Source: Candidatus Brocadiaceae bacterium (GTDB lineage: Bacteria > Planctomycetota > MHYJ01 > JACQXL01 > CAKKQI01). Taken from it: a DNA stretch of 11,634 bases. The notes beneath the pieces were generated by a model that had not been told where the DNA came from, searched no databases, and was given only the letters and a program-made list of their open reading frames with translations. The stretch is taken from NCBI GenBank assembly GCA_919901895.1, contig CAKKQI010000449.1, positions 1-11,634 on the forward strand, written 5' to 3'. Below are positions 1,508 to 5,925 of this stretch, in pieces (positions within the stretch are counted from its first letter, which is position 1; each line of letters starts with the position of its first letter). A program made the position numbers and the translations under genes.

Positions 1508-1647
1508 CAGACTGTGTCATAATCCTCTTTTTGTCATTGCGATCCGCCTGAGGCGGAGAAGCAATCTCTATTTAATGAGATTACTTCGTCGCCCCGTCCC
1601 GCCCAGGCGGGACGGGATTCCTCGTAATGACATTATGACACAGTCTG
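1508..1647. repeat. composite palindromic element with branched fold
   Basis: A perfect 15-bp inverted repeat (1508-1522 with 1633-1647) encloses a second stem (tgtcattgcga 1532-1542 with tcgtaatgaca 1622-1632, one G-T pair). Inside are a perfect hairpin 1543-1557 (tccgcct/aggcgga), an 11-bp pairing 1558-1568 with 1577-1587 (one mismatch), and an 11-bp perfect GC-rich hairpin 1593-1603 with 1606-1616. The whole folds as a branched cruciform. No transposase is nearby, so it is best read as a non-autonomous REP/MITE-like element. A 67-codon frame across it is made of repeat sequence and is not a gene. Confidence 0.8.
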
Positions 1648-1682
1648 ATTGCGAGTCTCGCCTTAGCGGGACGAAGCAATCT
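1647..1682. repeat. palindromic repeat unit, 'attgcgag...gaagcaatct' family
   Basis: The ends gattgcgag (1647-1655) and gaagcaatct (1673-1682) pair through gattgc/gcaatc around a central tcgccttagcggga arm. It is the same family as the unit inside 1532-1568 and the copy within nadD at 4901-4939. Confidence 0.75.
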
Positions 1683-1694
1683 GACCTGACAAGG

Positions 1695-1764
1695 TCATCC
1701 TGAGCGTAAGCGAAGGATCTCGTAACGAATACCAGAGAGACCCTTCACTCCGTTCAGGGTGACA
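1695..1764. repeat. inverted pair of 'tcatcctgag...aaggatct' repeats
   Basis: Unit 1695-1720 has atcct (1697-1701) pairing with aggat (1714-1718). A diverged copy in the opposite orientation lies at about 1735-1764, carrying ccct (1741-1744) and aggg (1756-1759). The two face each other and could pair over most of their length. The dyad tgacac/gtgtca at 1760-1774 follows directly. Confidence 0.65.
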
Positions 1765-1774
1765 CTTCGTGTCA

Positions 1775-1816
1775 GATTGCCACGCCCCCCGACGTTATGT
1801 CGGGGGTCTCGCAATG
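1775..1816. repeat. palindromic repeat unit with 8-bp GC stem
   Basis: The outer arms attgc (1776-1780) and gcaat (1811-1815) flank an inner stem cccccgac (1786-1793) paired with gtcggggg (1799-1806), loop gttat. It is another variant of the local 'attgc...gcaat' palindrome family, with a different central arm. Confidence 0.7.
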
Positions 1817-1905
1817 ACATACACAGAGGTAAAAAGTAAGTGCTTCAATAAAGCCAATTGTAATAAATATTTTAAACCTGGCAAGAAAAAACTACCATTT
1901 TTCTC

Positions 1906-4429: not shown

Positions 4430-5143
4430 ATGAAAATCGGTATTTTAGGCGGGACTTTTAATCCGATCCACGCCGGGCACCTGATCATCGCCCAAGCGGT
4501 TTATGAAAAGTTTAAATTGGACCAAATACTTTTCATCCCCTGCCATACCCCCTATCATAAACAAAATACTTATTCACCCCGCTGTTACATCGGGGGACAA
4601 GTCGCCGAACCGAAACACCGGCTAAAAATGGTTGAACTGGCTACCAACAATATCGCCCATTTCGGTGTTTCCGACATTGATATCAAAAAAGGCGGACTAA
4701 CTTATTCCCTGGAAACATTACGTCGGTTGAAACAAAATTATCCGGCCAGCGCAAAATTTCATTTCATCATCGGGGCTGATTCCTTACCGGAACTGCCGCT
4801 CTGGTATAAAATTAAAGAACTCAGCCGGTTGTGCGAGTTTATCACGGTCGCCCGCCCCGTCCTCCGCCTTAGGCGGATCATCGGGACTCCTCGCAATGGC
4901 TGTCATTGCGAGTCCCGCCTTGCGGGACGAAGCAATCTCGTTTCGTTACGGGAACTAAAAACAATTTCTCAAAAACTGGGAGCCGGATTTGCCCGAAAGA
5001 TAGAAAGAAATTTCCTGAAGCATCCGATAATAAATATATCATCTACTGAAATTCGCGCCCGGTTAAAAAAACGGCAATCAATAAAGTATCTGGTCCCGCC
5101 GTCGGTAGAGAAATATATTATAAACCATAAACTTTATCCATGA
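4430..5143 (+). CDS. nadD: nicotinate-nucleotide adenylyltransferase with repeat-derived insertions
   Basis: Transfers AMP from ATP to nicotinate mononucleotide to make deamido-NAD in cytoplasmic NAD synthesis. Seen: the nucleotidyltransferase signature GGTFNPIHAGH (7-17), IIGADSLPELPLWY (113-126), the CEFITVARP block (135-143), the C-terminal ISSTEIR (203-209) and YLVPPSVEKYI (220-230). At 237 residues it is longer than most NadD proteins (roughly 190-215). Excess sequence sits at residues 144-171, where the DNA is a palindromic repeat, and possibly at about 50-60 (PRCYIGGQVAE), where the family normally has a shorter link between the PxHK and HRLxM motifs. Both additions keep the frame, and all signature motifs survive, so the enzyme is probably active. 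The start is fixed by the canonical MKIGILGGTFNP N-terminus. The stop overlaps the mlaE start (ATGA), implying co-translation. Confidence 0.95.
   Translation: MKIGILGGTFNPIHAGHLIIAQAVYEKFKLDQILFIPCHTPYHKQNTYSPRCYIGGQVAEPKHRLKMVELATNNIAHFGVSDIDIKKGGLTYSLETLRRLKQNYPASAKFHFIIGADSLPELPLWYKIKELSRLCEFITVARPVLRLRRIIGTPRNGCHCESRLAGRSNLVSLRELKTISQKLGAGFARKIERNFLKHPIINISSTEIRARLKKRQSIKYLVPPSVEKYIINHKLYP
4577..4610. repeat. possible short palindromic insertion in nadD
   Basis: ccccg (4579-4583) pairs with cgggg (4593-4597) around ctgttacat, resembling the cccccgac...gtcggggg unit at 1786-1806. It encodes about residues 50-60 of NadD, where related proteins have fewer residues. The match is short, so this is a tentative call. 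Confidence 0.4.
4859..4942. repeat. palindromic repeat inserted in frame within nadD
   Basis: About 84 bases encode NadD residues 144-171. The sequence tgtcattgcgag (4901-4912) ... gaagcaatctc (4929-4939), with a tcccgc/gcggga centre (4913-4918, 4922-4927), matches the intergenic units at 1532-1568 and 1647-1682. Upstream, ctcgcaatg (4890-4898) pairs with cattgcgag (4904-4912), and ccgcct/aggcgg forms a further hairpin near 4864-4876. The encoded peptide, rich in Arg, Cys and Ser, interrupts a normally continuous NadD alignment between VARP and LREL. Confidence 0.85.
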
Positions 5144-5925
5144 ATACGAGTCATCTATTTAATCCGTTTAAAAGTGTCCGGTTAATCATTACCGGCACGC
5201 TGGAAAGTCTGGGTTATAATTTATTATTATTAATCCAGTCGGCCCGGCAATACCGGAGCATTCCGAACAGGTTCAGGGAAACCGTTAACCAGATATCCAT
5301 CTGTGCGCGGGGTGGTTTTCCCGTGGCGATTATCGTGGCGATCTTCAGCGGGATGGTCCTGGCGTTGCAATCAGGCATTGAAATGGCCCGCTGGGGTCAG
5401 GAAGCCCAGATCGGAACGCTGGTGGCGGCGACAATGTGCCGGGAAATGGGACCGGTGATGACCGCTTATATCCTGGCCGGATTAATCGGCTCCACGATGG
5501 CCGCGGAAATCGGGACGATGAAGGTCTCGGAAGAAATAGATGCCCTGGAAGTAATGTCCATTGACCCCATTAGTTACCTGGTCCTGCCGCGGTTGCTGGC
5601 AATGGCCTTAGTTTGCCCCTTACTGACAGTTTATACCAATGTCGTTGGTATTTTAGGAGGCGGTGTCGTGGGCAAATTAGTTCTCAACGTAAATTTTTCA
5701 CTTTATTTCAGATATGCCCAGGAAGCCCTGACCCTGAAGGATATTTACAGTGGGCTTTTCAAGGCCTTGATTTTCGGATTTATGATTGCGCTGGTGGGCT
5801 GTTCGCAGGGTTTACGGGCGGAAAACGGTGCGGCCGGCGTCGGCAAAGCCACAATGAAAGCCGTCGTGATCGCTCTCATCTCTATCTTAATCTTTGATTA
5901 TTTCCTGACCTGGTTGTTTTATTAA
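5140..5925 (+). CDS. mlaE: MlaE-family ABC transporter permease (lipid transport)
   Basis: Membrane subunit of an MCE/Mla-type ABC transporter that moves phospholipids between inner and outer membranes. It has 261 residues, normal for MlaE. The amphipathic N-terminus (1-57) is followed by hydrophobic segments at about 59-79, 92-120, 147-178, 205-222 and 240-259. Family motifs include GMVLALQSG (71-79), REMGPVMTAYILAGLIGS (101-118) and the cytoplasmic loop EEIDALEVMSIDPISYLVLPR (131-151), which contacts the ATPase. The start overlaps the nadD stop by 4 bases, so translation is probably coupled; no Shine-Dalgarno is evident. The next genes are the matching ATPase and MCE protein. No mlaA, mlaB or mlaC gene is in the window. 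Confidence 0.93.
   Translation: MNTSHLFNPFKSVRLIITGTLESLGYNLLLLIQSARQYRSIPNRFRETVNQISICARGGFPVAIIVAIFSGMVLALQSGIEMARWGQEAQIGTLVAATMCREMGPVMTAYILAGLIGSTMAAEIGTMKVSEEIDALEVMSIDPISYLVLPRLLAMALVCPLLTVYTNVVGILGGGVVGKLVLNVNFSLYFRYAQEALTLKDIYSGLFKALIFGFMIALVGCSQGLRAENGAAGVGKATMKAVVIALISILIFDYFLTWLFY

Follow-up and report, generated by a model that had tools for sequence, protein, structure and literature searches.

A translated pair of TGTC-tagged palindromic repeats in nadD of a Candidatus Brocadiaceae bacterium, and a GIY-YIG nuclease gene associated with the repeat family

The question raised by this locus is how a palindromic repeat came to be translated within nadD, and by what means its relatives are spread through the genome. 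The window, i.e., the whole stretch of DNA that was analysed (11,634 nucleotides), is contig C449 of a MAG of 2.5 Mb in 509 contigs. Its nadD gene (4430..5143, forward strand) codes for a nicotinate-nucleotide adenylyltransferase of 237 residues, which scores over the cut-off of the NCBIfam models NF000840/TIGR00482. The AlphaFold model of the protein is that of a confident NadD (pLDDT 87.6), and all 50 of the Foldseek matches listed for it are solved NadD/NaMN adenylyltransferase structures.

Comparison with related proteins places an in-frame insert of 81 nt at 4860..4940 of the forward strand (4859-4939 is equally possible), within residues 144-171. The alignment comprises 64 rows, i.e., the window protein and 63 relatives (from the best 120 of 1246 homologues listed, the window's own included). 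The insert segment is absent in all 63 relatives: columns 156-172 are empty in each of their rows, and columns 150-155 are filled in one. The closest relative, G001, a member of the same family, has a NadD without the segment and shares the uvrB-nadD-mlaE gene order with the window (by eye). The two proteins are co-linear apart from two regions, of which one follows the A-R-P motif and the other is a short stretch, and excision of the 81 nt (4860-4940) yields a NadD that is co-linear with that of G001 at the insert site. A sequence-only reading of this DNA had described a NadD interrupted with its frame kept, and is borne out in this respect. The in-frame palindromic repeat that it reported is also real, its size being about 81 nt or 27 codons (with a placement ambiguous by 1 nt) rather than 84 nt and 28 codons.

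In the AlphaFold model the insert appears as a low-confidence loop, with residues 147-167 below a pLDDT of 50, compared to block means of 97 (residues 131-140) and 96 (residues 181-190). The linker that follows the R-P motif comprises 60 residues in the window protein and 20-53 residues in the 63 relatives; one of these, P0008, has a longer linker of 53 residues at the insert site, with a different sequence. The 84-nt strand of the nadD segment folds at z = -4.87. The insert probably persists because the repeat unit has few stops, the frame is kept and the segment sits in a loop of variable length. A second in-frame addition, of about nine residues, is evident at NadD residues 48-56 (4571-4597), where each column is empty in at least 62 of the 63 relatives. 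A small palindrome, ccccgctgttacatcggggg, with acaagt after it, coincides with this addition. The motif cgggggacaagt recurs in a gene that looks radical-SAM-like by eye (L056, about 5275-5300).

The nadD segment had been taken for one palindrome of about 84 bases, sharing both of its ends with repeats elsewhere in the window. It consists instead of two abutting REP units, and both quoted ends occur only on the right-hand 39 nt. This right unit (4901..4939, forward strand; pattern match 4902-4937) is a complete TGTC-ATTGC...GCAAT-CTC REP, which reads TGTC-ATTGCGA...CGAAGCAAT-CTC and is translated in the TGT-CAT-TGC (C-H-C) frame. The left-hand 40 nt (4861..4900) are a truncated unit on the reverse strand, with a decayed tag and a mini-palindrome, CCGCCTnAGGCGG. 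The orientation of the pair is [-][+], with the tags inside, the opposite of the cassette-like [+][-] arrangement.

Further units lie upstream of uvrB. An intergenic unit of the ATTGC type at 1532..1568 (forward strand; pattern match 1533-1566) forms a [+][-] pair with a unit of the ATTAC type at 1578..1632 (reverse strand; pattern match 1579-1631). These are followed by a decayed unit with no intact tag at 1647..1682 (forward strand, by eye) and by a unit of the sister ATCCT type at 1693..1721 (forward strand; pattern match 1694-1719). Of the two intergenic copies to which the nadD segment had been related, the one at 1532-1568 is a good match and the one at 1647-1682 a decayed copy. A REP-like unit at 1772..1819 (reverse strand, by eye) begins with tgtcattgcgag and ends with gtggcaatctga in its reverse complement, and lies outside the pattern census described below. 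Several REP types are clustered directly 5' of uvrB (1500-1830), where the inverted pair actgtgtcataat / attatgacacagt encloses two units. The central hairpin varies between copies, several of which contain the nested CCGCCTnAGGCGG mini-palindrome. This occurs in the loops of different units (1541-1558, 4862-4879 and others), and in units of other Planctomycetota (G154) as well, as though one palindrome could insert into another.

Units of the GTCATNNNGA type are largely free of stops: 16 of 35 are open in all three forward frames, and the mean number of open forward frames per unit is 2.31, compared to 1.59 in letter shuffles (the highest of 200 being 1.86). In the reverse frames the mean is 1.91, none of the units being open in every reverse frame.

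The repeat is dispersed throughout the genome. Patterns built on its ends give 24 strict and 36 loose matches (one overlapping another) and none when reversed, and the sister ATTCT/ATCCT type gives 25 matches, again with none for the reversed control. The loose pattern and the sister type together amount to 60 units; two longer units (C331:3519 and C438:7478) are caught by the strict pattern only. Among adjacent pairs at most 100 bp apart, 12 are [+][-] and two are [-][+]. Eight of the 60 units lie inside seven ORFs, which encode NadD, an acyl-CoA dehydratase activase (two units), an HdrA-like protein, a ROK kinase, an adenine deaminase, a formate dehydrogenase-like protein and an RHS-like protein (the last named by eye). 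Units that overlap ORF ends or small ORFs (L002, L007, L011, L012, L016, L181 and L189) were left out of this intragenic count, and the remaining censused units are outside any ORF of 100 aa. The forward TGT-CAT frame is used in four of the seven ORFs (nadD, HdrA-like, ROK kinase and adenine deaminase). In the activase (C219) and the ROK kinase (C465) the insert is cleanly absent in close relatives. The adenine deaminase (L068) is only a partial case, since the net gain over its relatives is 6 of 13 residues, and in the formate dehydrogenase-like protein (L188) the REP lies within a stretch of about 67 residues that is missing from a solved relative, i.e., a larger insert. The HdrA-like protein (L009) was left out of the verified cases because its relatives fail to align across the insert.

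From its sequence, the nadD segment represents two inserted and translated REP units, which belong to a TGTC-tagged (CGTC-like) family of palindromic repeats. The earlier proposal of a dispersed palindrome that tolerates translation is in keeping with its absence from NadD relatives, the approximately 60 copies in the genome and the other in-frame copies in conserved genes; such a palindrome would presumably be mobile. Neither of the two results named beforehand as contrary to it (the same 28 residues in distant NadDs that lack the DNA repeat, or a genome devoid of further copies) was obtained. The same proposal held the type to be undescribed, which it is not: REPs were sorted by an unpaired GTAG or CGTC tag by Di Nocera, De Gregorio and Rocco (2013, PMC3733652), and the CGTC-tagged superfamily covers it. 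According to that paper, the tags of CGTC REPs may also read TGTC or CCTC, the stem begins with AT, and the units are mostly paired with their tags outside (HH). The superfamily is found inside ORFs and includes RPE-4 and RPE-6 of R. conorii and dRS3 of Neisseria, so the likeness seen earlier to Rickettsia palindromic elements was apt, and translated palindromes have a precedent. In over half of the cases an intragenic insert consists of a dimer or group of REPs that codes for 20-30 aa. Hosts given in the paper include S. meliloti, A. lipoferum and Neisseriae. The NadD insert itself is a new case of an already known phenomenon. A search of open-licence PMC papers for the letters of the repeat gave no relevant title among the matches listed. 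PMC3733652 states that CGTC REPs "apparently lack a dedicated transposase" and that transposase genes do not accompany them.

What is chiefly new is a partner gene located beyond the nadD coordinates. On contig C364 a GIY-YIG protein of 96 residues, with Gly at residue 72, adjoins ATTGC REPs; on contig C294 a second GIY-YIG nuclease, 61% identical to the first and with Trp at residue 72, lies between repeats of the ATTCT type. The genome thus contains one nuclease of each kind beside matching repeats. Only two of its ten stand-alone GIY-YIG genes are flanked by REPs on both sides, and only those two pass E <= 1e-15 with a model (A1) built on the two REP-flanked nucleases. Since the other eight are neither flanked on both sides nor recovered, the link with REPs belongs to a subfamily and not to GIY-YIG genes generally.

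The partner nuclease comprises about 95 residues and has a PF01541 match in all 62 aligned members; in the two members scanned no NCBIfam model scores over its cut-off. Residues Y19, G21, R29 and N85 are present in 80 of 80 nucleases and E66 in 78, with an X (stop or unread) in the other two; the assignment of catalytic residues follows the GIY-YIG literature. The structure model of the nuclease has a pLDDT of 93.7, and phage records contain no match to the protein. The C294 nuclease itself (L086:1435-1764) has a C-terminal tail that extends into the REP downstream of it, and the ORF upstream (aminotransferase-like by eye; L189:269-1435) ends in the REP-encoded CHSERSEESQL. REPs thus supply protein tails, since both proteins end in REP sequence.

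The association was assessed in other genomes, using the best 80 of 240 relatives in named genomes of many phyla, picked by similarity to the two REP-flanked queries, and a REP scanner written after the units of the window's genome had been seen. A REP lies within 200 bp on both sides of 53 of the 80 nuclease genes, compared to one of 297 control ORFs from the same loci, and on at least one side of 69, compared to 28 of the controls; in 11 of the 80 scanned loci no REP lies within reach. Near the nuclease gene there are 5.74 units per kb, compared to 0.14 per kb beyond 600 bp. In 51 of 58 cases the unit closest to the gene on its upstream side has an outward-pointing tag; the orientation of the downstream unit (38 of 64) is not significant.

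A plasmid collection contains 33 records with the nuclease, mainly from Rhizobium, Sphingobium, Shinella, Sinorhizobium and Neisseria. Fourteen loci (of 20 listed and 33 found; rhizobia, Azospirillum, Neisseria and others) were examined with a hairpin scanner, in a set that has no control ORFs. All 14 have a tagged REP within 250 bp, 11 of them on both sides; the downstream unit in L272 (Spirosoma) is self-complementary and doubtful, and L273 and L275 have a unit downstream only, at 182 and 204 bp. The tags read CGTC in ten, TGTC in two and CCTC in two (e.g., CGTCATCCCCGCGAAGGCGGGGATCCA in Azospirillum lipoferum), and the density of units is 5.1 per kb near the gene vs 0.49 per kb far from it. 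On a Planktothrix plasmid (L269) the REP-flanked GIY-YIG gene has an MmeI-like restriction enzyme on one side and a DISARM drmA gene on the other.

Among 246 Planctomycetota genomes, the nuclease is present in 17 of the 31 with at least 10 units and in 5 of the 215 with fewer (Fisher 7e-14, a value that ignores phylogeny and includes some chance unit matches in large genomes). The 30 loci fetched from this phylum represent 29 distinct genes (L262 is the same gene as L241). A unit lies within 200 bp on at least one side of 15 of these genes, and on both sides of nine; the 15 include the two of the window's genome, as well as L244, which rests on an odd match. The other 14 have none, and some of these REP-less genes sit in REP-rich genomes (G182 and G227).

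The type of REP follows the type of nuclease. On a tree of the 80 nucleases, the REP type (ATTG vs other, 69 labelled loci) changes six times, compared to a mean of 21 changes with shuffled labels and 17.5 with labels shuffled within phyla; none of the shuffles (500 each) is as low as six. Residue 72 is Gly in all 43 loci with ATTG (GTCATTG) heads and Trp in 24 of the 26 others, the exceptions being L107 (Gly, ATTA) and one Arg. In the out-of-sample Planctomycetota it is Gly in seven of seven ATTG loci and Trp in seven of seven others (two of the 14 belong to the window's genome, and L244, an odd match with Trp, was excluded). The 14 replicon loci, none of which has ATTG heads, contain Trp in 13 and Tyr in one. 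The tree holds only five to six independent switches of REP type, one of them on a well-supported branch, which is too few for a sign test on residue 72 to become significant. When REP type is predicted leave-one-out from neighbours below 70% identity, 6 of the 26 non-ATTG loci are assigned wrongly, and none of the 43 ATTG loci. The association of nuclease and REP, and its specificity, are well supported. We consider it likely that the nadD segment is a translated REP pair whose family is spread by a dedicated GIY-YIG partner nuclease.

Alternatively, the GIY-YIG gene could be a passenger, or could encode a domesticated nuclease for which REPs serve as landing site or regulator; replication slippage or another enzyme (e.g., a RAYT) would then spread the REPs. 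A RAYT-like gene is indeed present on C364 (L056:6073-6546; 74 bits with NCBIfam REP_Tyr_transpos, below the cut-off of 80), but it has GTAG-type repeats (gtagctgcgaggcttgccctcgcctc and relatives) on both sides and forms a separate REPtron. Y1_Tnp was the single transposase class searched, and its one match in the genome sits among the GTAG-type repeats and not the TGTC-tagged family (by eye); RAYT was therefore rejected as mobiliser of the latter. In addition, 14 of the 31 Planctomycetota genomes with at least 10 units, including the nearest relative G001 as well as G062, G154 and G195, have no nuclease at E <= 1e-15, which could reflect incompleteness, loss or the action of another enzyme. 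A passenger, however, would not need a REP type that follows its own type across phyla, and we regard this explanation as unlikely.

The nuclease might also restrain the REPs, trimming or resolving hairpins during replication and being kept adjacent by autoregulation, while moving nothing. Palindromes are hard to replicate, and co-variation of nuclease and REP type is expected of any direct contact. Several pairs of loci point in another direction. L118 and L124 belong to different records; over 398 bp they are 94% alike, and beyond that they are unrelated. Their homology starts no more than 2 bp from the outer tag of the upstream REP and ends at that of the downstream REP. In L112/L113 and L142/L173 it likewise begins no more than 2 bp from the upstream tag, and L128/L134, two copies in one genome, are 95% alike over 439 bp. 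In the other locus pairs compared, homology runs further or stops inside the cassette. Cassette-limited homology between different lineages suggests, from these alignments, that the unit itself moves, and a purely restraining role is in our view distinctly improbable. A third explanation, in which an ordinary loop of this lineage happens to look like the repeat, is hardly credible: linker length after the R-P motif does vary among NadDs, but the right unit fits a pattern specifying 14 bases with 36 matches in the genome and none reversed, the same kind of unit occurs in frame in other genes, and chance resemblance is contradicted by the reversed-pattern controls and the copy census.

Spread of the REPs by their partner nuclease could proceed as follows. 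A minimal GIY-YIG nuclease gene between outward-tagged REPs ([+] gene [-]) would encode an enzyme that recognises the REP via the tag and the first stem bases, its specificity being set partly by residue 72. The nuclease would cut or nick at the REP and mobilise its own cassette, gene-less [+][-] pairs and single units would be mobilised in trans, and copies that land in frame in loops would survive. The enzymatic role, i.e., DNA cutting, its chemistry, transposition and the nuclease as cause of the nadD event, is what we infer from these associations. More broadly, we lean towards the view that CGTC/TGTC REPs across bacteria, including dRS3 and probably RPE-4/RPE-6, are non-autonomous derivatives of a new mobile element (a nuclease of about 95 residues between outward-tagged REPs, in which residue 72 helps read the bases after the tag), and that protein-embedded palindromes of the NadD type are by-products of the activity of this nuclease. 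If true, GIY-YIG nucleases would join HUH transposases as candidate spreaders of REPs, and in-frame palindromes in essential bacterial proteins would be explained. The spread of CGTC REPs becomes directly testable, since the nuclease flanks, co-occurs and co-varies with them. Among open-licence PMC papers, none was found that contains GIY-YIG and "repetitive extragenic palindromic" together, no link between a GIY-YIG nuclease and REPs is found in the titles and abstract openings listed, and a term search of the RepRanger paper (PMC12306157) gave neither GIY nor RAYT.

Among known systems, the family is closest to the CGTC-tagged REP superfamily, with which it shares a CGTC/TGTC tag at one end, an AT/AT stem start, an unpaired tail of three bases, a predominance of tags-outside pairs, and intragenic copies or dimers of 20-30 aa; the nuclease subfamily adjoining both repeat sets is common to them. 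The TGTC tag is present in the nadD unit and the flanking loci, the GTCAT head being built into the census patterns. The first stem pairs are A-T and T-A (GTC-AT ... AT-C) in the 60 censused units, which is weak evidence because the patterns impose them. Unlike CGTC-tagged REPs, which have a stem of 8-9 bp, a loop of 4-5 bases and mostly a CCA tail, most units here show an outer stem of 5 bp, an internal GA/GAA mismatch and a central hairpin that varies (by eye), and the nadD unit, like the one at 1532-1568, has a CTC tail (1566-1568 in the latter). Since these details of stem and tail do not fit, the family is filed as a TGTC-tagged relative and not under CGTC-1 to -4. Rickettsia RPE-1, by its description as cited in PMC3733652, is likewise a palindromic insert translated in frame in genes. 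UPF0213-type small GIY-YIG proteins (1zg2, 1ywl) and GIY-YIG homing endonucleases share the fold and the catalytic positions of the partner nuclease, which is, however, a distinct, REP-flanked subfamily with no intron or intein seen. Like REPtrons (RAYT/TnpA_REP with GTAG REPs), the present system has a single gene between REPs, a partner specific to the REP type and non-autonomous units genome-wide, whereas the partner of REPtrons is an HUH tyrosine transposase and their tag GTAG, as opposed to a GIY-YIG nuclease and a TGTC tag here.
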